Source: Capitulum mitella
Lineage: Eukaryota; Arthropoda; Thecostraca; Pollicipedomorpha; Pollicipedidae
Direction: 5' to 3'
Length of the DNA stretch: 64,000 bases
Assembly (NCBI GenBank): GCA_030062745.1
Contig: CP099846.1
Location: 2,170,001 to 2,234,000 of the forward strand
In this document: positions 3,320 through 60,074 of the stretch, one piece after another
Position numbering within the stretch: the stretch's first letter is position 1
Layout of the letters: each line of letters starts with the position of its first letter
Translations under genes and position numbers: made by a program
The notes under the pieces: generated by a model
Database searches by the model: none
What the model was told of the DNA's origin: nothing
What the model saw: only the letters and a program-made list of their open reading frames with translations

Positions 3320-3407
<88 letters not shown>
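3320..3407. repeat. (TA)n microsatellite
   Basis: Nearly 90 bases of pure TA repeat. The open frame crossing it on the minus strand, with a long Ile-Tyr run, is an artefact of the repeat. Confidence 0.95.
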
Positions 3408-6269: not shown

Positions 6270-6273
6270 TTAA

Positions 6274-6986
6274 GGCATTAGCGACTTTGGGTTAGTACAT
6301 ATTAATAGCAATAGATGTCACTAGTTAATGCGGCATCCGCTAGACGGCGATAGCTACGAAATGCTTCGGGACAAAATAAATAGCATTTCATGTTTTAAAT
6401 AACTGTAGGTAGGAATTCTAAGGCAAGTGAACTATCGAGCTAAATTTCTCCGTAAATTAATTTCCAAATCACCCTTAGTCATTCTTGCTAGTTTTCAATA
6501 GTAGGGGAAGCTGCCCAATATGCGCCACATTTTCGAACGTGGACTATAACTATGCTGTTGGTAAAAATCGCCTTATTTCTCTCTCATATACCTTCTCTGG
6601 TCTTTTGACCACCATAGTCTCCGGTGTCTTAAAACTTCAGTCTTTGCCTACTATTTGTTATTCAATTTCTAGCAAGATGTTGCAAAAGGCGCAATTAGGG
6701 CAACCCTGCCACATTTGCGCCACATGATGAGTCTAATTGCGCCAACATAGAAATGACACTGAGTTCCAGGTATTCTGCAGCGGTGAAAGGTACAGTGAAC
6801 CATTATCTGGTATGTTATGAGCAGTTTCACTTTTATTCTCTTTGTCAATTCTTGCAACCAGGTGGGGAGAGGTGCTCAGATCCCGACAAGGAGGCATTCA
6901 TTCGCAGCCTCATGGAGGTAGCTACGTAGGCGCATCCAGTGGGTTTGGGGTCCATACCCCTCTTGTGATCCGGAAATGTTTTCCTC
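6274..6986. other. Spacer between the two inverted MITE copies
   Basis: About 710 bp with no supported gene. It contains two copies of a TGCGCCACAT-like word (around 6520-6535 and 6712-6726), which may mark another degraded repeat. Confidence 0.4.
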
Positions 6987-6990
6987 TTAA

Positions 6991-15061: not shown

Positions 15062-15644
15062 AGCTTTGCCTGAGGTAGGTATCTGAAATAACCGCGAAGA
15101 GGAAGTCGTTAGGACGGGGATCACAAATGCTAAGGAGCTTGCAAGGGCGGGTAGTCGTGGTAACCTTAAGTGGCGGATCTAGAGGGATGATGAGGGGGGG
15201 AGCATGCTCTTTCCTACTCCAGCGGTCCGCAAAAACGCGGAATCCTTTGAGACACATGAAAATTGGACAGAAAAGTAAAACAAGGCCATTTAGCCTCACG
15301 GGAAAACCCGTTCCTGCATTCGACCCTGTCCATATATGACACCAGTTAAAATGATGTTGAATTTCACCGTCTCGAAACATCTCCGAGACATGGTTAAAAT
15401 CTCGAAAAAAACTTTTCCGTTTAGGTGAATAATGAAACCGTCATTCGAAAGATTGAATTCAACTGCTCAATTTGACTCCTCTACACCCCCCACCGACGGC
15501 TGAGTGTTGACAGAAATATGTTAGTTTTGCTAAGGTTAAGTTTATTAAAAAGAAACCAGTATTGGGGAATAGTTTGGCGTATTTAAACCATGCCACTATC
15601 AAATTATTTAATAGCATTTCCCGTATGGGAAGCACCGGCCATCC

Positions 15645-18399: not shown

Positions 18400-18860
18400 T
18401 TTCCGTCGACACGGGCAGGAGTGCTTCGGACTTTATATCTGCCCGGGTAGGAATGTCACGACTTCATTTCTGCCAGGCAGGAGTGTCACGGACTTCATGT
18501 CTGCCCCGGCAGGAGTGCCACAGACTTCATATCTGGCCAGGCAGGAGTGCCACGCGTTTCACATCTACCCAGGCACGAGTCGCACGGACCGCATATCGGC
18601 CCGGGCACGGGTGTCACGGACTTCATGTCTTCCAGGACAGGAGTGTCACGGACTTCGTATCTGCCCGAGCAGGAGTGTCACGGACTTGATGTCTGTCCTG
18701 GCAGAAGCATCAAGGACTAGCTGCCCCGACAGAAGTGTTACGAACTTCGCGTCTGCCCAGGCAGGATGTCACGCACTTCCTGTCTGCCTAGGCCGGGGCA
18801 TCATGGACTTCACGTTTGCCCGGGCAGACGACGTCGGAGCCCTCTATCTGCCCCGGGCCG
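18400..18860. repeat. Minisatellite of about 30-37 bp, just past the laminin stop codon
   Basis: About a dozen imperfect units of the type AGGAGTGTCACGGACTTCAT plus a CTGCCC-rich linker. The unit word CCGGGCACGAGT also occurs at the end of the last laminin exon (around 18912-18923), so the array may have grown from the coding end. It would lie in the 3' UTR. Confidence 0.85.
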
Positions 18861-18899
18861 TCACGTGACCGAGCTGCGCCAGCTCCGGCCAGGTCAGCC

Positions 18900-19045
18900 T
18901 CACGACTCGACCGGGCACGAGTTAAGCAGAACCTTGGTCAGGCCGGCCATGTCGGTCCAGTCGCGGCGCACGCCGTTGATCTCGATGTTGCGGATGCAGC
19001 CCTGGAAGTTGTCCGGCTGCAGCAGGATGGCGTTGACGTCCGATT
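18900..19045 (-). CDS. wb: Laminin alpha exon 43 (LG5 end, stop codon)
   Basis: Acceptor CCCGCAG before 19045. The exon completes the codon split after GGLP and encodes [20 protein letters not shown] and the last LG5 cysteine in [12 protein letters not shown] follows at 18902-18900. The few residues after the final Cys match the usual laminin alpha C-terminus. Confidence 0.9.
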
Positions 19046-22000
19046 CTGCGGGCAGATCTGCGGCCGCGTCAGACCTCGGGGCGGCTGCGCCGGTCAAGTC
19101 GGGGAACGGTACGGTCCAGTAGTCTGTGCGCGAGCCAGTGAACGGTTTGCAGTAGTGAAGCATACGCGGGCCAACGATTGCACAACATGTCGCGTCTGCT
19201 CGGCATCACGTCGTCCTCAGTGCATGTTTAAGATAGCCGGGGCGTTGGCTATGGGAGCTAATGAAGTGAAGCGTTCCCTGCAGTGAAATGTTGCATTGAA
19301 ACAAGTCTCACAAGCAGTCTTTGTTTCCCCACGTTAAGAGGGCCTCACAACGCCCCGTCACTGCGCACGGTAACGGTGAAATGTACACGGAAGGCGCTGG
19401 ATCTTGTGGAAAGCGCTCTTGTGACAACCGTGGAGGACATCTTACCAGGAAGGCCTCCAATGTAGAGAGGAAATCCACCGGAGGAAATTCGACTGGTGCC
19501 GTCGGCGGAGACACCGTATCTCTCCGGGTACCTGTCCACTTTAAGAGTCACCTGCGAAGGACGATGCAGTCATTTTGACTTTCGTCTTTGTCTTGCCTGT
19601 CAGTATTTACACAACATTTCGGCTAGTTAGCTCTCCGGCCGTTATTATTTATACAACTGGCCGGAACAATGTGTTAACGACAACACACAACACGAGGACG
19701 AAAGTCCGAAAAATTCCCCCATCCGCAATACAAACACTGCGTCTCAATTACTCCACAAAACTCGAAGCTGCAGTCATACAGCAGTCTGGGAGAAAGGTCA
19801 CCTGACGTCTGTGAATTATCACGGAAAAGTATGCATCGATATTCTTCACCTTCCCACTAGGAAAAATTCTCAATTTTTCCTGTGTTTTAGTACGAGCCTC
19901 CCTCTTCGCAATACGAACGGGACCAACAGAAATCGGTATCTGCCGATAACACGGTAGAAGGCATGATGGTAAACATGCAGTAGACTGTTACTTGGTATCT
20001 GACGTAGTTGGCCTTGACCGTGTGCCAGCGGTTGTCGCACACGGCGAACTTGTCCGGGAACTTTTCTCGCGCTCTGATCGGCTGGGTGCCGCCGTTGTAC
20101 ACGGAGAAGACCACCTGCCGGACGGGAACGGTGGTGATGGTCTCCTGAGGAATAGCTACGTCATTTGGAGATCGCAAAACACGAACTCACTTCACATCTG
20201 TGTTAGCCAGCTAGGTGGAGCGTTCATTTCATAGCTAGTCGTACAGGAATACAGTTTGATGTACCAGATTCCACAAGGCTCTGCTTTTCAAGTACGACAT
20301 CGTCGCATTCGAGTGTCACAAAGCTCCATTCCTACACGACTCCCATTACAGCAGAAGCCATCAGTGACAATTTTGGAGCAAAATACGCATGGAAGACAAA
20401 TAAATAACAAAACCGCACCAAATTTCCGCACCGTAATCCGAATAGCAATAGCTGTCTTCAGCGCACAAATCCAGTCTCTGAAGCTTGACTCCGACTGTGA
20501 TCTCCGGCGAAGACCGGAGATCTGAGGCCCGGCTGACGGCTGCTGCTGGACACTCACCAGTTCACCAGGCCGATCTCCAGGGACAGGACCCATCCACCAA
20601 TGGCCCATCTATCGGCGACGCGGCCATCTGTCCATCGCTGCACCCTCTCGTCCGACGTTAGACCCTCCTGTAGGTAACTTGACCCACTTGTCCGTCACTG
20701 GACCCTCCTGTCCGCCGCTGGACCCACCTGTCCGTCACTGGACCCATCCGTCCATCACTGAACCCACCTCTGCATCACTGGACCATCCTGTCGGCCACCG
20801 GCTACGCCTGTCCGGGACCCACCTGTCCGTCGGTGATCTCCAGGGACATGGCCGGGCCGCCGGGCGGACCAGCCACGCTGATCAGCACACCGCTCCGCTT
20901 CGTTGTGCGGAAGTCGAGGGCCAGCTCGATATTGTCCCTCAGCTGGAAGCTGTTGTCTGTCGGCGGCCAAAGGCAACCGTCAGAACGGCTAGGACACCGA
21001 CATCAGACCTCCGCTTCGCTGGCTCTCATGGCACCGTACCTCGCCAAGGACCAGTCTGACTTCCCAGCCTCACGCCAGCCAGCAGGACATCAAAGGAAGT
21101 GCGCAAATTCCTCACAAGTACATGGCATATGCGATACGCTCATGTGCAAAATAACGACGGCAACAGTCGTACGCAAGGCTGACATCCGTTCTGCGTGCGA
21201 AATCAAGCGCTTTATGTCGTCATTTATGTTGACAGTGACGGCGCGACATGGACGATCTCCAACACGGCAGCTGCAGGCTCATAGGCGCGCACCGTAGGTG
21301 GCGTATGCATCGCCGGCGAACAGAGCTCCTAGCTCCACGTGCGCCTTGCACTGGCTCACGGGCGTGTTGATCATGAGCGACGGCAGGTCAATGGCTCTGC
21401 CGCGGATCTCCAGCTGCTTGATGCAGCCCTTGAAACCCTCCGTTTGCTGGAACGGCCGGGTCAGTTAAGGTCAGCAGCGGCTTTTCGGCGACACTTTGGC
21501 GAGCAGCTTTGGGCATTTCGCAGCAACAGACCCACAAGTCGCGGGATAAACAATGCAAAACTGGTAACTGCGCTCGAGACGTTATTGAGCCGAACACTCT
21601 CACCTCAGGGCCATTTTCCGAAACCGAGAAAATAACAACGCTTACGAAGAAATGGAGTAACCTAATACTAATCTACACAATCGCCTTCCCGACCAAAGCG
21701 ACTGCGGACAAAGCGCACAGAGCTGCGGGCTGCTGGCGGGCTGCCACGCACCAGCTGCTCGAGCTTCTCCTCTTTCTCCCGCGGCACGCCGCCGATGTAG
21801 AGGGCTCTGCCTCCGCGCAGCCGGCCCGGACCGAGACGGCTGACCGGCGGCGACCCGCGCACTCGCAGCACGTACTTTCGGCCCTGCTTCTCCAGCGTGA
21901 CCTGGTGGCGGGAGGGAACACGAGGGAGGTCACAGGGAACGCCGCCCCGGCCCGGTGCAACAGCGATCTAAGAATACGGTATAGAATGGCTCTGCTCTGT

Positions 22001-25000
22001 GGATGCCTCTTCGGCTTCATGGTCACGTGAAGATTACTTAAATTTTAACACGAACGACCATCCCATGGATAACTCGTTCTGTTAGCGTAGAAAAATACTC
22101 ACGTTTAATCTTCTTGTAATCTTAAAGCAATTGTGCCACTTTAAACCATAAGGATAATGGAGGTTCAATGCTTTTATGGGTTTTGTATTTGACAGCTACA
22201 TCAAATCTGAGCCGAAATGTGCATACAGCCTAAAATGAACCCTACGACGCACCGCAAAGATTCAGAAAACTTCCTCATAAATTTTTCCCCGGCTATTTTC
22301 CATGAGTCGCAATGCCGAACTCTGTTACAGCACAACTGTTCTGGTCACAGGCCTATAACAAAGGCGTTTCCCAGTCTAGGCCGGACCACATGCTCACCAT
22401 TTTCCAGTTTCCGTCGTTGAGCTTGACCGGGTTTCTCAGTTCTCGTTTTCTGGGGCCCCTCTGTACGTTCAGCACCAGTGAACCGTCCCGCAAACTCAAC
22501 AGCAGCGACGAAACGCGTCTCCTGCTGGAACCCTGCAGACAAAAGGAAGCCGGGGACATCTCTCTCTCTTTCTCGCTCTCTTTTTCCGTCGTGTCCCTTT
22601 CTCGCTCTCTTCCCCTCTTTTTCTACTGCATTATTAACCATCATATTATGCCTCACTTTCAGCCAATGCGGCGATAGGAAGTAAAAACTCAGACATGCTG
22701 TCACGGCATTTCTGTCTACGGCATGCGCGGCTCATGCAACAAAATTTTTCATGCGCCCCCAAAAACGTAAAACAACACTTCATTCCTCAAATCTGAACAT
22801 GTTTGTCAACTTCAAAGCGCCTTTGTATTAGCTGGCAATTAGTTGTGATTAAAGACAATGCTCAAAAAGTAATTTGGGACAATTTTAAGTCGGCATTTCC
22901 TAGACCTTATCGACGTTTTTTCGCAAAACATGTATTTTAGCCTCAGCATTCCGTAAGCAGGCTAATTCCGTCAACGAATCGGAGTAAGATTCGCCATTTT
23001 CAGAAACTGTTTCTGTAGCAATTCATGACAACATTCAATCAAATGCACCCACCTCATTGTACAGCAGAAGGCCATTGGGGTAAAAAGTTCTAAAATCAAG
23101 CGTGATGTTAAAGTTCCTCCGGAAATACGTTTTGTTCACTGGCACGTACATATAACTGAACGGATCGTCCCCAAACTTGAGCGCTCTGAAAAAGAGAAGT
23201 AAATGTCAGAAAATAAGACAACGCATTTGGGTGCCGTGATGATACACGGAACATACAGTCAAAAAGGTCATGGTTACCAAAATCTGTTCAGCCTTACAGA
23301 ACAGGATTTGTTGCTACACTGTTTAATGCATGTCATCTAGCTTTTACACGTGTACTCTCAATTTGAAACGTCAATGCTTGTCATATGGCTTTTCTATAAC
23401 TAGTCTATACGTCAAGTGTACCATTTTCCGGCCTATATTTCGTGGATGCCATGCCACTGACCAGCATTTCTGTGCGTCATAGCCAGTTTGAAAACACAAG
23501 CCTCAGGAGATCTGATTTTCGAACCTAACCTGACCTGACGAGCTTGGTCTGACTCACCAGGCGTCGTCTCACCCTGCATCCAAGGTGACCTGATCTGGTG
23601 GCCCGGCCTGCCATAATGACCTGGTACCATCTGATCTGCTCTGGTCTGGTGACATGGTCTTCCCCGACCCGCCACTCACCCCGCCTCCGGTGTGACCTGA
23701 CCTGACCTGACCTAATAATCTGCAACCCGGTCTGACCTGGTCCGGCTCACCCAGACCGAGCTGTCTGACCTGACCCAGCTATTCAGCCCGCCTTCGGGCT
23801 GACGCTGACCTGGTGACGCGGCCCGAGCTGTTTGACCTGACCCGGCCACTCACCCGGCCTCCAGGGTGACCTGGGACGCCCGGTTGCAGCTGGCCGCCTC
23901 CGGCTCTGTGGCCATCTCCTGCGGCGGCCGCTCCCGCAGCAGGTCGCCGGTGTCGCGGCCGATGGCCACGTTCTGGTACCGCAGCGGGGCGTCAAACAGC
24001 ACCAGCCTGCCGGCAGTATGGCCGGGTCAGAGACGCCATATCACAGAACGCTGGCCCGGCCGGCCGAAACGTCAGATCCAATCACCGGCCGACCTTCCAC
24101 CGGCGTCGCGGGGCATTGGGTTGGAGGCAAGCCACGATTGCATCACAAGATAAATCGTCGTAGAATCCTGTCACGGACCTCTTTTCTTTCCATAACTCTT
24201 AGTCTTAAACCCGCCCGAGACCATTCCTTATATCGGTGAGTGTTCTGTATGTCTCATAGTCTACTCACCACCGGAGTTGTCCCGCTCGGCCGCACACACC
24301 GGTCCTACATCCGTCAACTCAGCGGACACTCCACTCGGCCGCACACAGCGGTCCTACGTCCGTCAACTCAGCGGACATTCCACTCGGCCGCACACACCGG
24401 TCCTACATCCGTCAACTCAGCGGACACTCCACTCGGCCACACTCACCGGTCCTACATCCGTCAACTCAGCGGACACCCCAACCGGGCGCACTCACTGGTC
24501 GTCGAAGATGACGTCGGTGATGCTGCCCTGGAAGGACGGCGGCAGGTCGTCCAGCTTCGGCTGCACGTCCGGCGGGAGGCCGCCGAAAAAGAGGCCGCCC
24601 CTCTCCGGGGCTGCCACCACCGAGGAGCCGCGGTTCAGCTGTCCGGACACCACCACTTCGTCCGCCACCCGCACTTCGATCCTGCAGCAGACCGCGCCGC
24701 TCAGAGACGTCCGCTCTGGACATGCGCGGCGGTGCTGTGACGGCCAGGGCGAGCCATGCTCCACGGCTTCCACCAAGTCTGGCTGCCTTGGCATAATACT
24801 ATTGCGTCTCTGAAGTGCTTAAGTGAAATCTTCCGTGTCAAAATATGCATGGTTCGTACGGAAGCAACAGATGTTTTCTTCTTTTTAACCAGATAAATTT
24901 CTTAGAAGCCATTCTGCCCGTAGTCCGGTGGCTCGAGCCGAAAGACCACCAAATCTGCATGCAGAGCCAAATACAGAGCCAAGAGCAGGGCAGCACATCA

Positions 25001-52000: not shown

Positions 52001-55000
52001 CACACACAGCTCACAGCGGTTACGCGCAGCTCAGAACGGTCACACGCGGCTGAAAACGGTCACGAGCAGCTCAGGGTGATCGCCCGCAGCTCACAGCGGT
52101 CGCTCGCGACTCACGGCGGTCAAAGAAAAACTCACGGCTATCACACACAGCTCGGAGCTGTCACGATCGGTCCAGAACGATCGCACACAGCTCAAGTCGT
52201 CACACACAGCTCTCATCGGTCGTGCACGTCTCACGGCGGTCATGCCAGGCTTATAGTGGCTACGTCACTCTGAACGGTCATACACGGTTCGGAAAGGTCG
52301 TATCATTCGAAACGGCAGTACAGCTTAGCACATGCGTATAACGTCTCTGGGATGTTGGACGAAGGCAACAAAAAAGAACAGATTCATTCGTGTAACGGTG
52401 ATCATAGATGTGACAAAACAGACGGAACACAGCCGGAGACTTCGGAGGAGAACACTCGAATATCCACCGTTTTCAATGACGACGTCTGCCGACCGTTAGG
52501 CATGTAATACTGCCATGAGGTCTCAATAGCATAGCTACCGACGGATTTGTGGTCACAGCGTACGAATTGCACGTACCTCTCGTCTTCTCTTTCCCTCCTC
52601 TTCCCCTACCCCCTCCTTCTCCTGTATTTCGTTCATTTGTGGGCGGGAGAGAAGACGAAACACAAACCGTTTTGGCAAAGACGAATGAGTAAGACTAAAG
52701 AGTCCGATGGGCTATTTGATCATTTGGTATGTATAACTGATTTCACTAGGCAGACGAAATAGTTAGACGGGGCAGGGAAAAGAACGTCGAAAAGCAGATC
52801 GCGTGCTGAGTGCGAGACGCTTAAGATAACGATGGGCTTATTTTGTTCGGTAGCCTCTTCTCATCCGCCCGTAAGAACCAATTTACGTCGGACTTTTCGA
52901 CTGATTTGTTATTGCGGAAAAATCACAGTGGCCACTATCCGATTCCAAAACTTTACATTCTCGTGCTGTTAACTTACGCGAGCCGCCATTCTCGACTAGC
53001 AACGACTGTCGTCTGCGCAATGCACCTTGCTGGAGGAGACCGGCCGTCTGGCGTGCCTCTGACCCCGTCACGCAGACTCCAGCTGCGCGCGTACGCCGTC
53101 GCGCGCGTGCCCGGCGAGCCGACCGAGCCGCAAAAATGTGCCACCCGACCGCGCTGCACCGTCACCGGCGTCTGTAGGCGCGCCGACAGGCTGAGGCAAC
53201 GGCCCGCAGGATCCTGATCTCGGACGGATCTGCACGCTCTCCGCTCTAGACGGGCCGTTACAGCCGCGCGCTCCCCCGACAGTACCGGTGAGCCACCGCG
53301 GGCGCCGCGCCGCGCGGACGGGATGCCGTCAGCGATGACCAGGCACCAAAGGCGTTCGGCCGCGCACCTGGCCGAGCTGGCAGCGAACCGGCCGTCGGGC
53401 GCGCCGCGCCCGGTCCTGCGACGGCGATAGATCGGCCGCGCTCGGCGGTGATCGGCTGCGCGCCGCGCTGCTGCCGGCGGCCTGTCGCGTGTCGACGCGG
53501 CCGGCGCGCCGATCCGTCACCGCGCGACCTGCCGCCGCCGACCGGTTCTCGGCCGCGCGAGCGGGACCCGGCCGTGCGGCCCGGCGGCGCGCGGCGAGCG
53601 GACGCATCCGACCGGCGGCCGGGCTCGGCCGGCGCTCCCGGGCTTCGCGGCGTCGTTTTTCGTCGGCGCGAGAACCGGGACCGTTCTGGGGCTAACCGTC
53701 GCTCGCGCCGTCTGCACGCTGCAGCGGCAATTACTCCGGCCCGTCCGGCGGCCGGCGCGAAATCAAGGCGACGAGCGAGGCCCACTCATTTCCCGCCTGC
53801 CGGCCGCCACTTTCGCGGCTGATTTAGCGCCGCCTGCCATCGGCCTTTCCGCGAGCGCCGCCAGACGCCGTCGAAGGCGGCCACAGACGCTCGGCCGCCG
53901 GACGCGGCCGGGCGCTCCGGGAACCGCCGGGTCCGTCTGGCCCGGGAACCACCAGACAGAGTTCCGGGAGCCCCAGAGAAGGGCCGGGGGACGCCAGAGG
54001 CTGGCCGGAAACGGGCCGGTCCGCTCCGCTCCGCCGGAAGTCCCGGGAGATTTCAGGCGCGGTGCCGGCACTTGAGACCTGAGCCAGGATCCTGCACAGA
54101 GCGGGACCGCCGACCTCTCGGCCGCCGCCCGAGTCCTGTCCGGATCAAACCCCGCCTCGCCAGAGCACTCCGCCACCGCGCGGCCGCCTACGTCGTCCGC
54201 CGAGGTGCACGCTAGGGTTTCCAAGTCCGGATTCCTGCCGTTCTCCGCCCAGTGTCACGGTCCCAGCGCGGTCAGGGGCAGCTCCAGCTGGCAGGCGCCG
54301 GCGGCAGCGGCGGCGGCGGCGGCGGCGGGCGAGGTGTCTGCCCGGCAGCAGGTGCCGACGGCCGCCGGGTGCGCACTGGAGGGCGGCCAACACCAACCGC
54401 CGACGGCCGGACGCACTCGTACGACACGGCCGACCGGCCGGCCCGGCTCGATGTTTGCTCAGGTGAACGGCGGCGTCTGACTCAGCTCAGTCGGGACCGA
54501 CCGGGCCTCAGTGCTCAACAGCGCAGTACGGCACGGACGCCACACCGAGTCTGGCGCAGATACTGAGGAGCCGAGTCTGAATCAGACATTAAACGGCCGA
54601 GTCTGGTCCAGATACTAAGCAGCCGAGTCTGGCCCAGATACTGAACAGTCGAGTGTGACTCAGATACTAGACCGAGTCTGGCCCGGATACTGAGCAGCCG
54701 AGTCTGACTCCAGTGCTGAGTAGTCGAGTTTGCTCCGGTAATGTCTAGCTGAGGTACTGTCTGACTCAGACGGAGAGCATCTTCCGTGACACCTAATGGC
54801 CCAGACGAGGCTTGGGCCCCACTGATCTTCAAAGGCGGCCAGGCGATATGATCTTCACGGGGCCCACGATTCCAAGCCGTCAAACTGAGCGATTTAAGTC
54901 TCCGTACCGACTCCGTGGGACCATCGAAGTTATGTCGAAAAATGAGCAGATGCCTGCGCAGCACTTTGTAAAAGCAATGTGAAATTCCACTAAAGCTTTT

Positions 55001-58000
55001 TAAAACAGTATGTGTCGAAATGGTAATAAAAATTTGGTACAGCCTTTCACGGATTAACTCGCGACTTGTGGGACAAATAAATTGCCACCACCTGCGACTG
55101 TAGCTTTCGTCTCGTAGCCGGGCGCCGCGGGCACTGACCTTGCAGCCCTGTATCGGGTGCCTGGCCCAGTAGCCGTGGGCACACCGCTGGCAGCTGGACC
55201 CGACAGTGTTCGGGGGACACGTGCACTGGCCCGTGTCCGGGTCACACCTTCTCCCTGGCTGGTCGCAGGGGCCACACTCTGCCGGCAGAGAGGGGCAGAG
55301 GTTAGCACTGGCGGCACGCCGCTGTCAGACTGCTGTCACAGCGGAAGCTGATATTAACCATAAGGCAGCGAATGCGAGCACATTCTACTGCCGCACTGCG
55401 TCTGCACAACAGCTGACGGCAGAATCTGCTCTCTCAAGTAGAGCTGAGAATTCGCATTTAGATGATATGAATAACGTTGTTCAGACTTGTATTCGGATTC
55501 CGCGAATGTTCAGATCTTGATACCAAGGTTGGAATATTCGGCAAATATTCTGTTAGCTATTTTTCGCCCGAATATTCACCGAATATTCGAATGTGAGCCA
55601 AGAATTCGAATACTCTTTCGCATTTCGTCATAGAATTTGAAGAATGTGAGACAAATCACGCACAACCACGCAGCATGCTAACTGGGGCACAGACTAGCGT
55701 TGTTCTGTGGCTTCTGTACATCAGTGTGGCTGAGAGTAAGACCCGGCAGTGCCACTGAAACATGCTCCACCCCCTCCTCACTGCGGCACTGATTTGTCCT
55801 ATCTGGCGGGGAGGTGCGAAGCTGCGTGAGTAACCTGACGCTTGTTCCGTGTATGACCTCGACTGTCAGAAACACCAGGCTGGGATTAGTCGGTGAGTGA
55901 CGCTGGTCGTCGCGGGAACGTAAACAGAGGCCTGTTCGCATACTCTTGTCTGTTGAGACGAATGCAGGAGAATGGCCGGTCTATCACAGCATCAAACCTG
56001 TTCCCATGTTGGGGTACCTTCAGAAGCCACCTCCGGCTTTCGGTCCGCTATTTTCAGAGTTTCTGAAGTGTCTTCATGAAATTTAGTTAACATTCCTGCC
56101 TATTCTTTCAGCATATAATGCCAAAATTTCACGTACTTTTCTGGCCCAGGGACTGAGCCAGGCTACGTTTCAGGGACGCGTATTAGGCCATTTTGGCACT
56201 GTTGAAGATAAAAGAAAAATGGCCCCCAAAACTACTTTTTAATACACTTGTTCAAACTTGATATGAGTGTATAGGTAAATAACTGGGCAAATACATTGCA
56301 ATATTTTTGTTGATCTGACGCCACTTCAAAAAAGCAGGTGAAGGTACAAAGTCAAAATTTGGTTTTACGTAAATATTTTTGACGCTGATTTTTTAAATGC
56401 AGAATCCGGGACGACTATGACTCAACACGGTGTCCTCTACACTTGTGTTTCCAGTTTCAGGCAGATATCACGTCGGGCCACGGAGCTATGACCTAAAATG
56501 TCTGTGCACACATTCTTTAACACGACGACCGAAACAGAACGTTTAAAAATGTAGTCAATTCAAATGATTGGAATCGTTTTCAAACAGTATGAAAAACTCA
56601 AGGCCATTCCCTGCGATTTTGAGGCATATGAGGTCATTTAAGGTCAAAGTTTGTAAGTTGACATGACCATTTTTTTACAGTTCCCCTTTTTCATGTCCCT
56701 GGCGTCGCCTACGCTAACATTTTACAAACGATGTAATACGATTGGCACTTCGTAGGTATAACATGACTAGTAGAAGCTTAACAGGTATTTGCAACTTATA
56801 TGCTATTCCAGTTTTGAAAAAGCGTCCCTCTCATTTCCCAAGCCCCATGCACACTCATGAATTTTCTCAAAATTCAAGAAAATATGGATCAATGAAAAAT
56901 TTTCATCGATTAGCTCTCGATGCATGTCAGTTGCATCAAAACCAGACCATAAACTGCGGTGTTATAACAATTCAAATACCATCCTCTTTTTGACTATTTT
57001 GCCCGCCACCGTAACCAGCCTTTTAAAAATCTCCAAAACTTCGTTTTAGTAAAATGTAACTGACGTTATGGCAAATCGATTGCCGTTTGTTAAGATGAAA
57101 TCGGACGGGTAGTTCTCGACACCGGGGGGGGGGGGGAGGCCAGAGCGCCATGGGTACGGGAATAGGGTGTGGGTGCATTGTGCCTGCGATGCGATTTTGC
57201 ACCTTTGCTGATTTTTCATCCTGAATAGATTCCGTATTAACAAGCATATAGGGGAAATGTACCGTCGCTTCAAAATCTTGTGTGCGAGAAGGGCAGGGCA
57301 TATATCCGTCCAAACACGGTGGTACCCCTTCTCGACGTTAACTGTAGCTGTGATCCCATGCAGAGCTTGGTTCCAGGAAGGGCATTATCGGTTTGGAGAA
57401 TAATGCGATTAATAAGAGAAATTGTATCAATTCAACGGCGGCTGTAAGTGCATCCGTTACAGGTGGGCCTTCTTTTTTAAACTTTGAGCCAAGGTTTTAT
57501 TAGGGTGTCTTGGCATCAGATGCTCGGCTGAACTGAGCTTGTTCCACGGATTAATATCCTTATACAGCCTACCATGCAATTCCAGACCAACGGCACAACT
57601 TTGTGGCCAACGTTTAACGTGCTGACATGAACAACAAGCTCACGCCGTAGCTAAAGGCCAGTAAATAACTAGTAAAGTCCAGTGGTAACGACCGATACCG
57701 AAGGTCGAGCGGAATGCACTTCTGTTCTTAATTTGGCTATGGATGCCATGGCGGAGAGCACGAGTTTCATGCCAACTTCAGAACCGTTGCGGGAGTTTCC
57801 GGTATTCGTGATTTGATTTCAGTCCTTTCTCTCAATCCAATCATTCCGAACCACCGCCTTCGTGCGGATTTCAGGGTTTACGGTCTGGCCACAGAGTAGC
57901 ATGGCCGTCAGTCAGACCGCCCTTCGCAGCTGACGTCATTCGTCTCCCCGCCTCAGGAACACCCGTTCACCGACCGCCAGGAGCTCGCAGTTCTGTGAAC

Positions 58001-60074
58001 GTCTTCGTAGAAATGTCGAACAGTCTGATTTTTACATATTGTTCCGCCTGTACCCTCCGGGATGAAATGACACCAGCTTCGGAAGATTCTAATGCTTGAT
58101 CCAAAAACTCGAACGTACCGATCCAAATATTCGAATCTAACCATCCGAATATTCGAGTAAGACAATATCCGAATTCTTATCTCCAGCCCACAATGTTGTT
58201 TCACGTGTCATGAGCTGCTGCCACTGTGCCGCATACGTAGAGCCGCAGAAACCGTGGTACCGCTGGCACACCGGCGCGGGTCACGCACTACCGCGGCACG
58301 CGAGGCTGCGGCATCCCACAGCGGTTTTCGCTCACACTCTGTGACCAATCACGGGATCAGCAATCGGCATACGCAGCACGAATATCGCCGACACGCAGCC
58401 CACCATCAGCGTGTTCTTGCCGTGTAAACGGGATGCAGACGTGGGTGAATCAATATGCGATAAGCGTCATTCAAACTGCCGTCGGTGGGCCAGGGACCGC
58501 TGATATCTCTGACGTATCTAAACATTCCGAACACTGAGCACGATCGCGCATGAATTCACTTCGAGACGATGCTCATGACGCGCCGGGCTGATAGCCTTTC
58601 GCAGGTGATAACGTGATGTGATTTGGTGCCATGTCGTCCGAAGATTTAACCGAAACTCATTGGTATGAAGACTGAACGTAGTTTTAAACGCTTCTCAGCC
58701 TTGAAATATTCACAGTTAGGAATTAGACGACACAATGCTGGTCGAACTGACGACTGCTGGTCGAAGCAGAACGATTTAAGGGTAGTCTTGTCTGCGACCT
58801 AAATGCACTGCAATCGTCCCCGTAAACCGGCAAAAACTGTTGATATCGACGACCACTGTGACAGGTAGAAAAGTTACACGGCCCAAACATTTTTTGCTTG
58901 GAATCGCTGTGAGTATTGGGATGGCTTCAGTGGAGTAACGACTTAAAAAAGAAAAAATCCTCCGGGCGATGAGCTGTCGCAAGGCGTCAGCAGCTTATCT
59001 AGACTCCGTTAGTTCGCCGAAGATCATAACTAGCATTCCACGGAACAGCAGGAGTCGTGACGCAAAACGTCCGTGACGTTTGCCCCACCCTCCATGACGT
59101 CACAGCCGACGTTGCCCATTGGCTGTCGGCTGCGCTGACTCACGACAGGGCTCGGTCAGGGTTTTGTGCATCTGGGAGCGATGTGACCTCCACAGTGATG
59201 TTTGCGCTGTACGGTTATGGTGCAGACTTATGCCGACAGCGCGATGCAGACGAACCACAAAAAAAAACTTGCGACGAGGATCGCTGGAGAAAAACTGTCA
59301 AACGCTGCAAGCTTTTCGGAAGTCCTAGAGATGACCACTGAATTCGTCCTTGCTGAGGACATCGACACACAACGGGAATCGAACGCCACTGCACAGCCTT
59401 GGGATAATGCCTGTCATGCAACTATTCGCGAAGCGCTCGCGACACAAATGAGTTGGCTATCGCGACAGCGAGACAGGGAATCCAGGAATCGGTAGGTGTC
59501 TCTTACCAGAATCATAAGGGTGTCTGAAAACTACCACCACAGCGGACAGTATTAAAAAGCTCGGAAGGGTTCCTATCATTCCCAAGAAATAGCAACACTG
59601 GGAAACAATTCCTCTCCGCATAGGAGCAACTAAAATAGTGATTGGTTTGGCATATCATGGGCGGAAGTATCGAAATGTCGAAATAACTTTGCCTTCCTAT
59701 GAGTGACAGCCGGTAGCAGCGAACGACCTTGACATACTGTGGGGAGAACCGGAGACAATGGAATGATCTTGACATCCGGCGGGGGACAGCCGGCAGCAGC
59801 TAACTGAGTTTGACACCGTGAAAGGTAGAGCCGCAAGTAGTGAACTGAGTTTGACGTCGAGAGTGGGAGAGCCGGAAATGGCAAACCGACCTTGACATCC
59901 GGTGGGCGAGAGCCGGAAGTACCCGGGCAGACAGGCAGAACACATTTCTCCGCCGACGCCGGCCTTGCAGCGGCACTGGCCGGTGATGGGGTCGCAGGCG
60001 TTCTTGACGGAGCCGAGCGGGTCGCAGTCGCAGGCGCGGCAGCCGACCCCTGGCCGCAGGTCGAAGTAGCCCGT
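18900..60074 (-). CDS. wb: Laminin subunit alpha, alpha-1/2 (wing blister) type, 3' part, 43 exons
   Basis: Laminin alpha chains join beta and gamma chains through a coiled coil. They form basement-membrane heterotrimers and bind cell receptors through five LG domains. The exons chain in consistent phase into about 2189 codons ending at TGA (18902-18900). Rough residues: LE repeats 1-215, L4 domain 216-455, LE repeats 456-660, coiled coil 661-1218, LG1 1219-1417, LG2 1418-1614, LG3 1615-1800, linker, LG4 1831-2020, LG5 2021-2189. Alpha-1/2 affinity is seen in the [10 protein letters not shown] segment before the post-L4 LE repeats, in [20 protein letters not shown] in LG1 and in SCPVES at the C-terminus. 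The first exon seen begins inside an LE repeat, so the LN domain and N-terminal LE repeats lie outside the window or were missed. One exon carries an apparent frameshift (39705-39707). Orthology to wb is inferred from domain order and motifs. Confidence 0.93.
19446..19551 (-). CDS. wb: Laminin alpha exon 42 (LG5)
   Basis: Acceptor TTCGCAG, donor CCTG|GTAAGA, ends in phase 1. It encodes [10 protein letters not shown] and the LG strand [11 protein letters not shown]. Confidence 0.92.
19992..20114 (-). CDS. wb: Laminin alpha exon 41 (LG5)
   Basis: Acceptor CCGGCAG, donor CCAA|GTAACA, 41 codons in phase 0. It encodes VVFSVYNGG and the conserved LG motif [11 protein letters not shown]. Confidence 0.92.
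20590..20822. repeat. 20 bp minisatellite grown from the exon 40 splice donor
   Basis: About a dozen units of GACCCACCTGTCCGTCACTG on the plus strand. The last unit runs into exon 40 at 20823. On the minus strand every good unit reads GACGGACAG|GTGGGTC, the exon end plus its 5' splice site. Confidence 0.9.
20823..20956 (-). CDS. wb: Laminin alpha exon 40 (LG5 start)
   Basis: Acceptor CCGACAG, donor GACAG|GTGGGT. It encodes [19 protein letters not shown] and EITDGQ. Phase 1 in, phase 0 out. The donor is copied many times in the adjoining minisatellite. Confidence 0.92.
21293..21446 (-). CDS. wb: Laminin alpha exon 39 (LG4 end)
   Basis: Acceptor TTCCAG, donor CTACG|GTGCGC. It encodes [16 protein letters not shown] and the LG4 closing cysteine in VSQCKAHVE. 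Phase 0 in, phase 1 out. Confidence 0.92.
21752..21901 (-). CDS. wb: Laminin alpha exon 38 (LG4)
   Basis: 50 codons in phase 0 between CCACCAG and CAGCTG|GTGCGT. It encodes [14 protein letters not shown] and the LG strand RALYIGGVP. Confidence 0.92.
22398..22532 (-). CDS. wb: Laminin alpha exon 37 (LG4)
   Basis: 45 codons in phase 0 between TCTGCAG and AAAATG|GTGAGC. It encodes [15 protein letters not shown] and LNDGNWKM, the usual LG core ending before the WH/WK turn. Confidence 0.92.
23053..23185 (-). CDS. wb: Laminin alpha exon 36 (LG4 start)
   Basis: Acceptor TTTTCAG, donor AATGAG|GTGGGT. Phase 2 in, phase 0 out. It encodes [18 protein letters not shown] and [13 protein letters not shown], a typical LG opening. 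Confidence 0.92.
23520..23853. repeat. Degenerate minisatellite related to the exon 35 donor
   Basis: Imperfect units rich in GACCTGACC. The unit at 23666-23703 (GACCCGCCACTCACCCCGCC...) closely copies the exon 35 edge at 23840-23875. On the minus strand it carries a GG|GTGAGTGG splice donor like the real one. Confidence 0.75.
23854..24006 (-). CDS. wb: Laminin alpha exon 35 (LG3 end and LG3-LG4 linker)
   Basis: Acceptor CCGGCAG, donor GCCGG|GTGAGT, phase 2 in and out. It encodes [20 protein letters not shown], then an acidic, Pro-rich linker with EAASCNRAS. That is where alpha chains have a spacer between LG3 and LG4. Confidence 0.9.
24241..24495. repeat. 49 bp minisatellite abutting the exon 34 donor
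   Basis: Four units with an exact 49-base period (GTCCTACATCCGTCAACTCA...). The exon 34 edge at about 24498 falls precisely on the next period. GCGCACTCACTGG there corresponds to GCCACACTCACCGG in the unit, so units carry a GTGAGTG donor-like core on the minus strand. Confidence 0.9.
24496..24681 (-). CDS. wb: Laminin alpha exon 34 (LG3)
   Basis: Acceptor CTGCAG, donor GACCA|GTGAGT, phase 2 in and out. It encodes [18 protein letters not shown], the LG strand [11 protein letters not shown] and [12 protein letters not shown]. Confidence 0.92.
25035..25201 (-). CDS. wb: Laminin alpha exon 33 (LG3)
   Basis: Acceptor GGTAG, donor CGGAA|GTGAGT. It encodes [17 protein letters not shown] and [17 protein letters not shown]. 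Phase 0 in, phase 2 out. Confidence 0.92.
25657..25797 (-). CDS. wb: Laminin alpha exon 32 (LG3 start)
   Basis: 47 codons in phase 0 between TATCCAG and GGCAAG|GTCAGT. It encodes [16 protein letters not shown] and [12 protein letters not shown]. Confidence 0.92.
26412..26680 (-). CDS. wb: Laminin alpha exon 31 (LG2 end)
   Basis: Acceptor GCGACAG, donor GGCCAG|GTCAGT, phase 1 in, phase 0 out. It encodes [38 protein letters not shown] and the closing GVTMGCNGQ. Confidence 0.92.
27158..27305 (-). CDS. wb: Laminin alpha exon 30 (LG2)
   Basis: Acceptor TTTTCAG, donor ACAGG|GTAAAT, phase 0 in, phase 1 out. It encodes [19 protein letters not shown] and [12 protein letters not shown]. Confidence 0.92.
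27414..27516. repeat. 18 bp perfect hairpin flanked by a direct repeat, in an intron
   Basis: Arms at 27451-27468 and 27474-27491 are exact reverse complements with a 5-base loop. A direct repeat of about 29 bases, beginning GGGGATCAGAGGAGTGAACT, flanks it (about 27414-27442 and 27488-27516). A second 12 bp inverted pair (27442-27453 and 27462-27473) overlaps the first. Confidence 0.9.
27785..27959 (-). CDS. wb: Laminin alpha exon 29 (LG2 start)
   Basis: Acceptor CCGGCAG, donor GGCAAG|GTACGG, phase 2 in, phase 0 out. It encodes [20 protein letters not shown] and [18 protein letters not shown]. Confidence 0.92.
28177..28278 (-). CDS. wb: Laminin alpha exon 28 (LG1 end)
   Basis: Acceptor CCGTCAG, donor ACCCAG|GTAGGC, phase 2 in and out. 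It encodes [20 protein letters not shown] and [10 protein letters not shown], a diagnostic LG1 end of alpha-1/2 chains. Confidence 0.93.
28279..28640. repeat. About 121-130 bp tandem repeat carrying copies of the exon 28 acceptor
   Basis: CGGCGAACCTGACGGTAC occurs at 28271 (exon 28), 28401 and 28522. Each repeat therefore holds the minus-strand 3' splice site and the first codons of exon 28 (the VRFAGCL segment), followed by a copied intron stretch. Confidence 0.9.
29260..29440. repeat. GGTCAGGTC-type simple minisatellite
   Basis: Dense imperfect 5- to 10-base units (GGTCAGGTCAGG, GGTCCGGTCC) in the intron between exons 28 and 27. Confidence 0.85.
29532..29708 (-). CDS. wb: Laminin alpha exon 27 (LG1)
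   Basis: Acceptor GCCCAG, donor AAAAG|GTCAGC, phase 2 in and out. It encodes [17 protein letters not shown] and the LG strand [16 protein letters not shown]. Confidence 0.9.
30027..30181 (-). CDS. wb: Laminin alpha exon 26 (LG1)
   Basis: Acceptor TTTTCAG, donor CAACAG|GTCAGA, phase 0 in, phase 2 out. It encodes [20 protein letters not shown] and [10 protein letters not shown]. Confidence 0.92.
30523..30684 (-). CDS. wb: Laminin alpha exon 25 (LG1 start)
   Basis: 54 codons in phase 0 between CCTCAG and ACGCAG|GTCAGG. It encodes [19 protein letters not shown], with the single LG1 Cys, and [12 protein letters not shown]. Confidence 0.92.
31500..32113. other. Intron 24 interior, no exon seen; AT-rich repeat at its right end
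   Basis: No coding signal. A short ATAATG-type simple repeat occupies 32060-32113. Confidence 0.5.
32153..32307 (-). CDS. wb: Laminin alpha exon 24 (coiled coil end)
   Basis: Acceptor TACCCAG, donor TCCAAC|GTGAGC, phase 1 in, phase 0 out. Heptad-rich, for example [20 protein letters not shown], ending ARQAASN directly before LG1. Confidence 0.92.
32884..33060 (-). CDS. wb: Laminin alpha exon 23 (coiled coil)
   Basis: Acceptor TCGCCAG, donor CTCCG|GTGAGC, phase 1 in and out. Ala/Arg/Gln-rich heptads such as [17 protein letters not shown]. Confidence 0.9.
33160..33450. repeat. Degenerate minisatellite with GCTGCTCAGGACGCTGG-like units
   Basis: Imperfect units of roughly 30-35 bases in the intron upstream of exon 23. 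A CA-rich simple repeat precedes them at 33095-33145. Confidence 0.6.
34241..34367 (-). CDS. wb: Laminin alpha exon 22 (coiled coil)
   Basis: Acceptor GGCCAG, donor TGCGG|GTAAGA, phase 0 in, phase 1 out. It encodes [20 protein letters not shown] and [15 protein letters not shown]. Confidence 0.92.
34719..34817 (-). CDS. wb: Laminin alpha exon 21 (coiled coil)
   Basis: 33 codons in phase 0 between TTTGCAG and GACCAG|GTCAGA. It encodes [20 protein letters not shown]. Confidence 0.9.
35153..35291 (-). CDS. wb: Laminin alpha exon 20 (coiled coil)
   Basis: The acceptor CCGCCAG is the one that keeps phase 2 and avoids a stop. Donor CGACAG|GTGAGC. It encodes [20 protein letters not shown] and [19 protein letters not shown]. 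Confidence 0.9.
35626..35786 (-). CDS. wb: Laminin alpha exon 19 (coiled coil)
   Basis: Acceptor CGACAG, donor TCCAA|GTAAGC, phase 0 in, phase 2 out. It encodes [20 protein letters not shown] and [14 protein letters not shown]. Confidence 0.92.
36212..36376 (-). CDS. wb: Laminin alpha exon 18 (coiled coil)
   Basis: 55 codons in phase 0 between CCGTAG and GTCATA|GTGAGT. It encodes [20 protein letters not shown], a lone cysteine ([11 protein letters not shown]) and [14 protein letters not shown]. Confidence 0.92.
36672..36970 (-). CDS. wb: Laminin alpha exon 17 (coiled coil)
   Basis: The longest exon seen, 299 bp. Acceptor GCCTCAG, donor CGAAAG|GTGCGG, phase 1 in, phase 0 out. It encodes [20 protein letters not shown] and [19 protein letters not shown]. 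Confidence 0.9.
37922..38033 (-). CDS. wb: Laminin alpha exon 16 (coiled coil)
   Basis: Acceptor TTTTCCAG, donor GAGG|GTACGT, phase 0 in, phase 1 out. It encodes [20 protein letters not shown] and [12 protein letters not shown]. Confidence 0.92.
38371..38609 (-). CDS. wb: Laminin alpha exon 15 (last cysteine pair and start of coiled coil)
   Basis: Acceptor GGGCAG, donor ATCAGG|GTAATG, phase 1 in, phase 0 out. [20 protein letters not shown] is the Cys pair that in laminins precedes the coiled coil and can link the chains. NVSS and NNQS are possible N-glycosylation sites. Confidence 0.92.
38988..39181 (-). CDS. wb: Laminin alpha exon 14 (LE repeats)
   Basis: Acceptor CCACCAG, donor CCAAG|GTCAGG, phase 2 in, phase 1 out. 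It encodes [19 protein letters not shown], then [20 protein letters not shown] and [12 protein letters not shown], standard LE spacing. Confidence 0.93.
39531..39728 (-). CDS. wb: Laminin alpha exon 13 (LE repeats), with an apparent +1 frameshift
   Basis: Acceptor CCGCCAG, donor CGACAG|GTAGGA. The first codons read NCSGNTGG, the start of an LE repeat. The rest ([19 protein letters not shown], then [13 protein letters not shown]) is in the next frame. The exon is 198 bp, but the incoming phase 0 and outgoing phase 2 need 197. One base of the GGG on the minus strand (39705-39707) appears extra. It may be a real lesion, an allele or an assembly error. Confidence 0.9.
40039..40179 (-). CDS. wb: Laminin alpha exon 12 (LE repeats)
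   Basis: 47 codons in phase 0 between TTTCCAG and TGCCTG|GTGAGA. It encodes [11 protein letters not shown], then [20 protein letters not shown]. The usual EC before PGFYR is replaced by D-P-S-I, so one cysteine of the LE pattern is missing. Confidence 0.92.
40641..40755 (-). CDS. wb: Laminin alpha exon 11 (end of L4, start of LE)
   Basis: Acceptor TTTCAG, donor TGCCAG|GTGGGA, phase 2 in, phase 0 out. It encodes [18 protein letters not shown] and [16 protein letters not shown]. This closely follows the alpha-2 pattern ISEIS...IEKCDCP...SC. Confidence 0.92.
41015..41149 (-). CDS. wb: Laminin alpha exon 10 (L4)
   Basis: Acceptor TCCCCAG, donor GCCGA|GTAAGC, phase 2 in and out. It encodes [20 protein letters not shown], then [15 protein letters not shown], the C-terminal part of L4 domains. 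The phase 2 start is what demands an extra small exon upstream. Confidence 0.9.
41697..41746 (-). CDS. wb: Laminin alpha exon 9 (tentative 50 bp exon, L4)
   Basis: Exon 8 ends in phase 0 and exon 10 starts in phase 2, so a small exon is needed. This 50 bp candidate (acceptor TGTAAG, donor TTTCAG|GTGCGG) has the right length and encodes [16 protein letters not shown], with L-x-L placed as in other L4 domains. The acceptor lacks a good pyrimidine tract. Confidence 0.5.
41840..42188. repeat. 40-52 bp minisatellite built from the end of exon 8
   Basis: About eight units. The unit at 41890-41941 nearly repeats the last 43 coding bases of exon 8 plus its donor (42181-42232). Others are shortened. 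On the minus strand units read GGCCTCTACCAG|GTCAG-like, so the array holds many pseudo splice donors. Confidence 0.9.
42189..42359 (-). CDS. wb: Laminin alpha exon 8 (L4)
   Basis: 57 codons in phase 0 between TCGCCAG and TACCAG|GTCAGG. It encodes [12 protein letters not shown], then [17 protein letters not shown]. Confidence 0.93.
42685..42858 (-). CDS. wb: Laminin alpha exon 7 (L4)
   Basis: 58 codons in phase 0 between CCGGCAG and GACAAG|GTGACG. It encodes [19 protein letters not shown] and the L4 signature [14 protein letters not shown]. Confidence 0.94.
42859..46476. other. Intron 6 (3.6 kb), no exon seen
   Basis: The longest open frames here, at 45.6-46.8 kb, come from very GC-rich DNA (about 45680-46440) open in several frames on both strands. 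I see no laminin or other motif. The segment at 44470-45360 looks transposon-like, but I cannot name it. Confidence 0.6.
46477..46590 (-). CDS. wb: Laminin alpha exon 6 (L4)
   Basis: 38 codons in phase 0 between TTTCAG and ATCCAC|GTATGA. It encodes [20 protein letters not shown] and NTEEICYIH. The fit rests on phase and position between exons 5 and 7; motif support is weaker. Confidence 0.8.
47201..47341 (-). CDS. wb: Laminin alpha exon 5 (LE end, L4 start)
   Basis: 47 codons in phase 0 between TCGTCAG and ACTCCG|GTACGT. It encodes [20 protein letters not shown] and [19 protein letters not shown], the classic CFCF entry into an L4 domain. Confidence 0.95.
47394..47495. repeat. Two adjacent palindromes upstream of exon 5
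   Basis: First: perfect 20 bp arms 47394-47413 and 47422-47441 with an 8-base loop. Second: arms 47446-47454 and 47487-47495 plus inner arms 47461-47469 and 47472-47480, with a 2-base loop and a symmetric internal loop. Both lie 53-154 bases before the exon 5 acceptor, in the branch-point region. Confidence 0.9.
48330..48778. repeat. CCGGTC/CCGGCT hexanucleotide array before the exon 4 donor
   Basis: About 440 bases of degenerate six-base units running up to the exon 4 donor (48778). Open frames with Pro-Ala or Gly-Pro strings across it are repeat artefacts. Confidence 0.95.
48779..48911 (-). CDS. wb: Laminin alpha exon 4 (LE repeats)
   Basis: Acceptor TTCCAG, donor TGCAAG|GTGAGC, phase 2 in, phase 0 out. 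It encodes [19 protein letters not shown], then [18 protein letters not shown]. Confidence 0.94.
48960..50825. other. Left part of intron 3, no exon seen
   Basis: No coding signal. A repeat-like segment at 49575-49830 is rich in GACTCGGACTC/GAGTCCGAG words, possibly a small interspersed element. Confidence 0.5.
50826..51420 (+). pseudogene. Decayed LINE reverse-transcriptase fragment in a laminin intron
   Basis: On the plus strand [18 protein letters not shown] leads into motif A, IDLSKCF (50943-50963). [10 protein letters not shown] follows in another frame (about 51150), then a mutated YADD box reading [12 protein letters not shown] (about 51225). Frames change between blocks and the catalytic box is lost. 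Family CR1/Jockey-like; truncated at both ends. Confidence 0.8.
51633..51724 (-). CDS. wb: Laminin alpha exon 3 (LE repeats)
   Basis: Acceptor CTCGGCAG, donor CCGCAG|GTGAGC, phase 0 in, phase 2 out. It encodes [20 protein letters not shown] and [10 protein letters not shown]. Confidence 0.93.
51950..52300. repeat. 20 bp minisatellite (GGTCACACACAGCTCAGAAC type)
   Basis: About 15 imperfect units in the intron between exons 2 and 3. No exon edge is recognisable in the unit. Confidence 0.85.
52301..54480. other. Intron 2 interior with a very GC- and CpG-rich block
   Basis: 53050-54450 is extremely GC-rich with dense CG dinucleotides, so all six frames stay open. I see no splice-supported exon. 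It could be an internal CpG island or simply a repeat-rich GC block. Confidence 0.5.
54485..54770. repeat. About 26 bp minisatellite (GAGTCTGGCCCAGATACTGA type)
   Basis: Around nine degenerate units in intron 2, not adjacent to any exon I recognise. Confidence 0.85.
55139..55278 (-). CDS. wb: Laminin alpha exon 2 (LE repeat)
   Basis: Acceptor CCGGCAG, donor TGCAAG|GTCAGT, phase 1 in, phase 0 out. It encodes [19 protein letters not shown], then [17 protein letters not shown] and IQGCK. This is the LE type with CDxPGRxCDPxTG seen in alpha chains. Confidence 0.94.
55996..57167 (+). mobile_element. piggyBac-type MITE, copy 3
   Basis: About 1172 bp in intron 1. The interior matches copy 1 (for example 56690-56780 against 5770-5860). 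The right end reads CGGGAATAGGG; the left end and the TTAA sites have decayed. It is more diverged than copies 1 and 2, so probably older. Confidence 0.75.
57170..59700. other. Intron 1 interior, no exon seen
   Basis: No coding signal. GAATATTCG-rich stretches occur at 58080-58170 and, on the other side of the MITE, at 55535-55620; see findings. Confidence 0.5.
59701..59890. repeat. 41 bp minisatellite built from the end of exon 1
   Basis: About four and a half units of the GACCTTGACATCCGG...GAGAGCCGG type. The final unit is the last part of exon 1 itself with its donor. On the minus strand units read CGGATGTCAAG|GTCG-like. Confidence 0.9.
59891..60074 (-). CDS. wb: Laminin alpha, first exon seen (LE repeats)
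   Basis: Acceptor CATTCACAG before 60074, donor TCAAG|GTCGGT, ends in phase 1. It begins inside an LE repeat ([12 protein letters not shown]), then encodes [19 protein letters not shown] and [16 protein letters not shown] call it exon 1 only for this window. Upstream exons were not found up to 64000. Confidence 0.94.

Follow-up and report, generated by a model that had tools for sequence, protein, structure and literature searches.

On the minus strand of the window, which is the whole 64-kb stretch of DNA analyzed here, positions 60074 to 18900 are occupied by a laminin alpha-type gene whose 5' end is open, the 5' part of the gene lying outside the window. The gene was modeled from open frames, which were chained by splice scores and codon bias and then curated by phase and homology, resulting in 41 exons and 40 introns, with an intron sum of 34,494 nt and a median intron length of 469 nt:

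18900..60074, minus strand: laminin alpha-type gene, 41 modeled exons; LE, L4, LE, coiled coil and LG1-LG5; stop codon at 18900-18902

Pfam matches in this gene are to EGF_laminin, Laminin_B and Laminin_G. Among solved structures, the best match of LG1-3 is laminin alpha-2 (E 5.6e-71), that of LG4-5 is laminin alpha-1 (E 7.9e-33), and that of the L4 part is perlecan (E 3.3e-37). Translation block by block across the junctions revealed no internal stops from LG1 to LG5. Exon edges are less certain in the coiled-coil part (CC1-CC9) and at the starts of LEg, CC8 and LG3a. Exon LG5b has two candidate acceptors of equal phase (20114 and 20144, 30 nt apart), the downstream one of which fits laminin alpha-1 without the ten-residue insertion given by the other. 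Searches of viral and genome contig collections confirmed no related laminin loci.

Two further observations concern the gene itself. Exon LEg (LE domain, 39531-39728) switches frame near its 5' end, with NCSGNT in one frame and AGPRCDVC in another, through either an error in the sequence or genuine damage to the gene. Furthermore, 10 of the 40 modeled donors carry C at +3, nine of them within GTCAG; donors of this type are unusual in animals.

Copies of exon edges in adjacent introns

Tandem arrays are anchored at eight exon edges of this gene:

59660..59921, minus strand: donor-side array of ~41 bp units at exon LEa (last base 59891); alignment and reverse scan
46580..46690, minus strand: acceptor-side array of 33 bp units at exon L4a (first base 46590); TRF, alignment and reverse scan
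42838..42960, minus strand: weaker acceptor-side array of ~25 bp units at exon L4b (first base 42858); TRF and alignment
41834..42205, minus strand: donor-side array of ~40 bp units at exon L4c (last base 42184); TRF, alignment and reverse scan
28256..28620, minus strand: acceptor-side array of ~121 bp units at exon LG1d (first base 28278); TRF, alignment and reverse scan
24270..24512, minus strand: donor-anchored array of 49 bp units at exon LG3c (last base 24496); TRF, alignment and reverse scan
23540..23874, minus strand: degenerate array on the donor side of exon LG4a (last base 23854), with copies of both edge and donor; TRF and alignment
20621..20836, minus strand: donor-side array of 20 bp units at exon LG5a (last base 20823); alignment and reverse scan

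Copying was assessed by aligning each exon edge with up to 600 nt of the intron next to it and comparing the result with 200 dinucleotide shuffles per query, using four overlapping queries at each of 81 edges, of which 40 are donors and 41 acceptors; an earlier run covered 82 edges, including the stop-codon end, with the LG5b acceptor 30 nt upstream of its adopted place. With the 25+15 nt query, we determined that the junction is copied in the adjacent intron at six of the 81 edges (p<0.001), as compared with ~0.08 expected. Both sides of introns are affected, as the six comprise four donors (59891, 42184, 23854 and 20823) and two acceptors (28278 and 46590), and at five of them, all except 46590, the exon bases are also copied (30-nt exon-only p<0.002). 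Two edges, donor 24496 and acceptor 42858, are weaker. An earlier note on this DNA, which had proposed that such arrays carry copies of the neighboring splice site, had named formal alignment as a possible refutation; the units do align to exon edges, on donor and acceptor sides alike.

Among 158 exon-interior stretches of 30 nt used as a control, one reached p<0.001 and three reached p<0.01. In a second control, the 25+15 query was scored against the real introns of other exons in place of shuffles: none of these scored as high as the edge's own intron at 59891 (0 of 33) or at 42184, 20823 and 28278 (0 of 34 each), while one did so at 23854 (of 34), 46590 (of 35) and 24496 (of 46), and two at 42858 (of 34). 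At the 73 edges without an anchored array, 7 of 292 overlapping tests (four queries per edge) gave p<0.01, about three being expected if the tests were independent. These scattered signals fall in six edges (the LEd, CC6 and L4a donors and the LEe, LG2b and LG5d acceptors), none of which was taken as a case; the same applies to the LEe donor (47201), with p 0.008 in the 82-edge run.

We also approached the arrays from the opposite direction, comparing the intronic part alone of 17 arrays with ~8,500 windows of 60 nt covering both strands of the whole 64 kb. In this reverse scan, the adjacent exon edge was the best outside match for six of the eight anchored arrays (59891, 42184, 24496, 20823, 28278 and 46590), and for none of the nine other arrays, that of the 3' UTR included. 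The anchored units range from 20 to 121 bp and differ in length and sequence from edge to edge, which rules out a single repeat family shared among them. The boundary-spanning units seen carry one junction each.

Four arrays that the earlier note had described as edge copies are confirmed as such. For the 41 bp array that it placed at 59701-59891, the unit at the edge consists of the last ~30 nt of exon LEa and ~11 nt of intron (exon-only p 8e-7, best junction query p 2e-7); this array was absent from the TRF output and was found by alignment. At donor 42184, next to the array reported at 41840-42232 (40-52 bp), the corresponding values are 8e-6 and 2e-8, and in the alignment one copy extends through all 34 queried exon bases. 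The acceptor-side array reported at 28271-28540 (acceptor 28278) has a best junction p of 8e-13 and an exon-only p of 1e-4, with two intronic copies identical across the 50 nt compared. At donor 20823, the 20 bp array given as 20590-20840 has an exon-only p of 1.4e-3 and a best junction p of 5e-6, and the edge ranked first in the reverse scan narrowly (108 vs 107).

The remaining proposals of the earlier note fared unevenly. Its "weaker sixth" case at 23520-23875 is in fact among the stronger scores (donor 23854, exon-only p 2e-4, best junction p 2e-7), this edge being second in the reverse scan, at 139 vs 142 for an intron stretch near 29400. Conversely, the 49 bp array at 24241-24498 is an edge copy only in part: the donor and adjoining intron sequence recur in it (25+30 nt query p 8e-6; 25+15 query p 0.039), but the exon bases are not clearly so (exon-only p 0.31), and the window matching in the reverse scan includes 35 intronic nt. 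The possible seventh case, the 3' UTR array at 18400-18860, is rejected: its match to the end of the coding sequence gave p 0.051 with exon bases only and p 0.12 across the junction, and its listed best outside matches lie elsewhere. The statement that arrays end exactly at an exon holds at the edges but loosely, as at six edges the TRF arrays reach 5-23 nt into exons and at 20823 the TRF array stops short of the exon.

Two acceptors were absent from the earlier note. At 46590, junction queries gave p 1e-5 to 4e-4 and the exon-only query p 0.35; the unit seems to hold only ~10 exon bases. At 42858, the four queries gave p 5e-4 to 3e-2 (exon-only p 0.032), and the edge is not among the best reverse-scan matches of its array.

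The gene also contains arrays for which these tests gave no derivation from exon edges, including the two intronic minisatellites that served as controls:

18414..18827, minus strand: 32 bp minisatellite in the 3' UTR; TRF, with edge alignment and reverse scan negative
54545..54729, minus strand: ordinary intronic minisatellite, 26 bp, control; TRF, not exon-anchored
51934..52122, minus strand: ordinary intronic minisatellite, 20 bp, control; TRF, not exon-anchored

In the reverse scan, neither these 26 bp and 20 bp arrays nor those of 22 bp, 19 bp (two arrays), 5 bp and 66 bp, nor a hexanucleotide array, matched the adjacent edge best, and all were rejected as edge copies. The hexanucleotide array (48339-48768) is of the CCCCGG type, extends over 430 nt with ~72 copies and starts ~10 nt into the intron after exon LEd, the edge of which it matched in a single query out of four (p 0.003).

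Frequency of arrays at exon edges

On the gene strand, TRF (score 50, period of at least 15) detected 16 merged arrays, 15 of which were retained after one inside an exon was left out; at score 30 and period 10 it detected 32, or 30 without the two inside exons. Array coordinates from this gene-strand run deviate a little from those of an initial TRF run. These placement counts, like the intron-point counts given below, used the LG5b acceptor 30 nt upstream of its adopted place. Six of the 15 arrays overlap an exon edge (46590, 42858, 42184, 28278, 24496 and 23854).

Random placement in introns with a 25 nt overhang leads one to expect 0.80 (for an overlap of at least 5 nt) to 0.95 arrays at edges (P ~1e-4), and at score 30 and period 10, 1.5-1.8 are expected vs 6 of 30 found (P 0.003-0.008). 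Under a seed-duplication null, which lets the seed unit lie either within an intron or over a single junction, 0.85 are expected (P 3e-5), or 1.43-1.58 when matched for GC (P ~1e-3); counting 24496 as unanchored gives P 7e-4 to 0.01. The earlier note's expectation that arrays coincide with exon ends beyond random placement is therefore borne out for this gene's introns, with six of 15 at edges vs 0.80-1.58 expected. However, this result depends on the null. The 25 nt overhang had been fixed before its influence was known, and overhangs from 15 to 100 nt were all run: GC-matched placement expects 2.64 arrays at 40 nt (P 0.03), 3.84 at 60 nt (P 0.16) and 5.81 at 100 nt (P 0.57), while 100 nt without GC matching gives P 0.07.

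Per base, moreover, edges fall in arrays (6 of 82) about as often as intron points do (0.066 of 656; 0.055 of 641), while arrays are scarcer in noncoding sequence of the window below position 17,500 (0.010 of 210 points). GC content is 0.575 in the first 100 nt of introns, 0.560 in the last 100 nt, 0.512 in the intron middle and 0.650 in exons, and the higher GC near intron ends may favor slippage near edges. The gene is thus generally array-rich, and a preference for edges, suggestive within this one gene, is not proven.

These counts bear on two explanations that differ from the one we favor below. Ordinary intronic minisatellites might simply abut exons by chance, in a gene that is rich in arrays and has short introns (median 469 nt). 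That ~6% of intron points lie in arrays, with edges at a similar rate, and that GC-matched placement with 60-100 nt overhang expects 3.8-5.8 arrays at edges, would agree with such an origin, although the nulls with 25 nt overhang or seed duplication leave a ~4-8 fold excess. We consider chance abutment unlikely, and the copying of exon bases at five edges implies that those arrays arose across junctions, however often arrays in this position are to be expected. A mechanism that prefers splice junctions, such as breaks linked to transcription or splicing, or R-loops, that arise at exon edges and lead to templated tandem duplication, would account for the edge excess under the narrower nulls and for the involvement of both donor and acceptor sides. 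We regard such a process as quite unlikely here, as the sequence bears no direct sign of it, the rate per base at edges is about that of introns, and GC matching removes part of the excess. Hence, while the earlier note's suggestion of a recurrent mechanism stands with respect to recurrence, the parity per base and the loss of the excess under wide GC-matched nulls do not favor special machinery aimed at junctions.

A wider proposal is that splice junctions are preferred sites of array formation throughout the genome, with many arrays in each gene, owing to some property of the exon edge (transcription, splicing or GC-rich junction sequence), and that the arrays then keep supplying decoy sites, lengthen introns and occasionally give rise to new ones. 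We offer this tentatively and think it unlikely to hold.

Direction of copying, decoy sites and likeness to lancelet mirages

At four edges, the copied exon bases encode conserved protein sequence. Those at 28278 encode 12 residues aligned to FTGCMGETYFDN of laminin alpha-2; those at 20823 encode SLEITDGQ, aligned to GLEIVDGK of laminin alpha-1; those at 42184 encode a stretch aligned with the L4 part of perlecan; and those at 59891 encode the end of an LE domain, as judged by a match to the LE profile. From these protein alignments we conclude that at these four edges the exon predates the array, which derives from it, and exonization of a pre-existing array is rejected there. This protein-homology argument covers four edges, as the alignments do not reach 23854, 46590 and 42858.

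Copying of splice sites results in decoys, as the earlier note had anticipated, and by predicted score some of them equal the authentic site. Scored with a matrix built from other exons, at least one decoy equals or exceeds the authentic site at five of the eight edges: three decoy donors at 42184 (42143, 41946 and 41853; 11.0 bits) and one at 20823 (20727; 9.2 bits) equal the authentic donor, as two decoy acceptors at 28278 (28529 and 28408; 5.7 bits) equal the authentic acceptor, while one decoy donor at 24496 (8.8 vs 6.7 bits) and one decoy acceptor at 46590 (7.9 vs 5.1 bits) score above it. An acceptor further out from 28278, at 28718, scores 7.0 bits; it matches weakly and is perhaps not a unit at all. 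Every decoy found at 59891, 23854 and 42858 is weaker than the authentic site.

One might suppose from these scores that the arrays are kept by selection, the additional splice sites serving to buffer or diversify splicing. We consider this extremely improbable, given that in many copies the splice dinucleotide is changed or its place is unaligned: GT is kept in 2 of 6 aligned copies at 59891, 4 of 9 at 42184, 3 of 10 at 20823 and 3 of 8 at 23854, and AG in 1 of 5 at 46590. The dinucleotide is kept more often at 24496 (GT, 3 of 4), 28278 (AG, 6 of 10) and 42858 (AG, 2 of 3).

Unit similarity was compared for seven of the eight anchored arrays, 42858 being left out. At 24496 (0.93 vs 0.79) and 28278 (1.00 vs 0.90), intronic copies resemble one another more closely than they resemble the edge, with a slight difference at 46590 (0.84 vs 0.79), whereas no such difference is found at 59891 (0.71 vs 0.76), 42184 (0.72 vs 0.80), 20823 (0.78 vs 0.81) or 23854 (0.72 vs 0.83). 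Homogenization that spares the edge is thus clear in two arrays only and is not general; the arrays without clear homogenization look old and degenerate.

The phenomenon is not new: minisatellite-like duplications of exon/intron boundaries have been described in lancelets under the name "mirages" (PMC3087553, PMC3902484), and since the class already has a published name and examples, the laminin arrays are not a new kind. According to the excerpts of the amphioxus globin study considered here, both 5' and 3' boundaries are affected, AG/GT is present in many but not all units, and unit lengths are 10-72 bp in Adh3 and 150-160 bp in globins; arrays differ in length between haplotypes, regular splicing is undisturbed, and boundary units are excluded from homogenization (PMC3087553). 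The excerpts of a study of lancelet PGBD5 describe repeats of 60 and 108 bp located at splice sites and cite troponin C (PMC3902484). Compared with these partial accounts, the laminin arrays likewise have units of minisatellite size (20-121 bp, vs 10-160 bp published) that span the exon/intron boundary on the donor or acceptor side, with the authentic junction as the end unit and AG/GT retained in some units only. They differ from what the excerpts report in that eight anchored arrays in one gene exceed the number in any single gene, in that polymorphism and normal splicing are reported for amphioxus while the laminin arrays are known from one sequence alone, and in that homogenization is mixed, whereas boundary units are excluded from it in amphioxus. 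As far as these excerpts describe mirages, the laminin arrays match the description in the features tested, homogenization being mixed.

Among the matches listed from open-license PMC papers there was no named class other than the mirage, and a search of such papers for barnacles together with intron expansion gave no match. The excerpted part of an amphioxus huntingtin study mentions tandem repeats and does not mention boundary arrays (PMC2206037). Boundary minisatellites with potential novel splice sites are shared with human segmentally duplicated genes, in which, according to an excerpt, variable internal tandem repeats with units averaging 30 bp lie partly at exon-intron boundaries (PMC2812944); these human repeats vary between recent paralogs and alter transcripts, whereas the laminin arrays are known from the DNA of one gene copy.

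Taken together, we assign a probability of about 0.7 to the reading that the laminin arrays are mirage-type minisatellites, produced by recurrent tandem duplication across splice junctions and tolerated because the extra copies are spliced out. A short segment spanning a junction would have been duplicated in tandem, and the outermost copy persisted under selection as the working exon edge while the other copies became intron, as exon homology at four edges shows. Slippage or unequal exchange may then have led to array growth and to partial homogenization, which is clear in two arrays. Duplications wholly inside exons would presumably have been purged, and those spanning a junction tolerated because they left the coding sequence and a working splice site intact. 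As each edge has units of its own length and sequence, such events have occurred repeatedly and independently in this gene. Exon definition presumably prefers the authentic site over the decoys, which would keep splicing correct, and the modest excess at edges is probably best attributed to duplication-prone, GC-rich junction sequence combined with tolerance rather than to dedicated machinery.

Tandem duplication has also been proposed as a route to introns, in the Rogers 1989 model and, as excerpted, for potato RdRp, ATP2A1 and 24-bp repeats in fission yeast (PMC4974935). In the model, as in the laminin gene, the duplicated sequence carries splice signals, but the excerpted model builds a new intron from a duplicated exon or exon-intron segment, whereas in the laminin gene existing junctions have been copied into existing introns. 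That some introns were created or moved by the duplication, so that the arrays mark young introns, is a possibility put forward in the excerpts for lancelet globins with similar arrays (PMC3087553) and for other genes (PMC4974935); for the laminin gene we judge it very unlikely, because its units carry one junction each and no full exon-intron-exon set.

If the reading as mirage-type minisatellites is correct and the animal lies outside the lancelets, the class would reach further than the single lineage for which the excerpted accounts describe it under that name. Minisatellites at splice junctions bear on the growth and origin of introns and on the choice of sites among near-identical copies, and one gene with eight anchored arrays, some of whose decoys equal the authentic score, makes both questions directly testable.

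Other features of the window

Outside the laminin gene, a DDE transposase remnant, which we take to be pogo/Tigger-like, lies on the minus strand at 13918-15178, with Pfam matches to HTH_psq, HTH_Tnp_Tc5 and DDE_1 over two frames; an open frame beside it (13275-14084) had no Pfam match. An ORF on the minus strand at 1569-1898 presumably corresponds to the end of a non-LTR reverse transcriptase, which it resembles by eye, and likewise had no Pfam match; counting these two, three ORFs in the 5' part of the window gave none up to E 1. Rfam at gathering scores and ARAGORN gave no match. A large degenerate inverted repeat at 5096-8136 consists of four arm pairs of 121-278 nt, 74-81% complementary and nested around a center near 6620, and by its arrangement looks like a foldback element. 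Runs of TA/AT dinucleotides are present at 418-495 and 3322-3406, the second being perfect over 85 nt.
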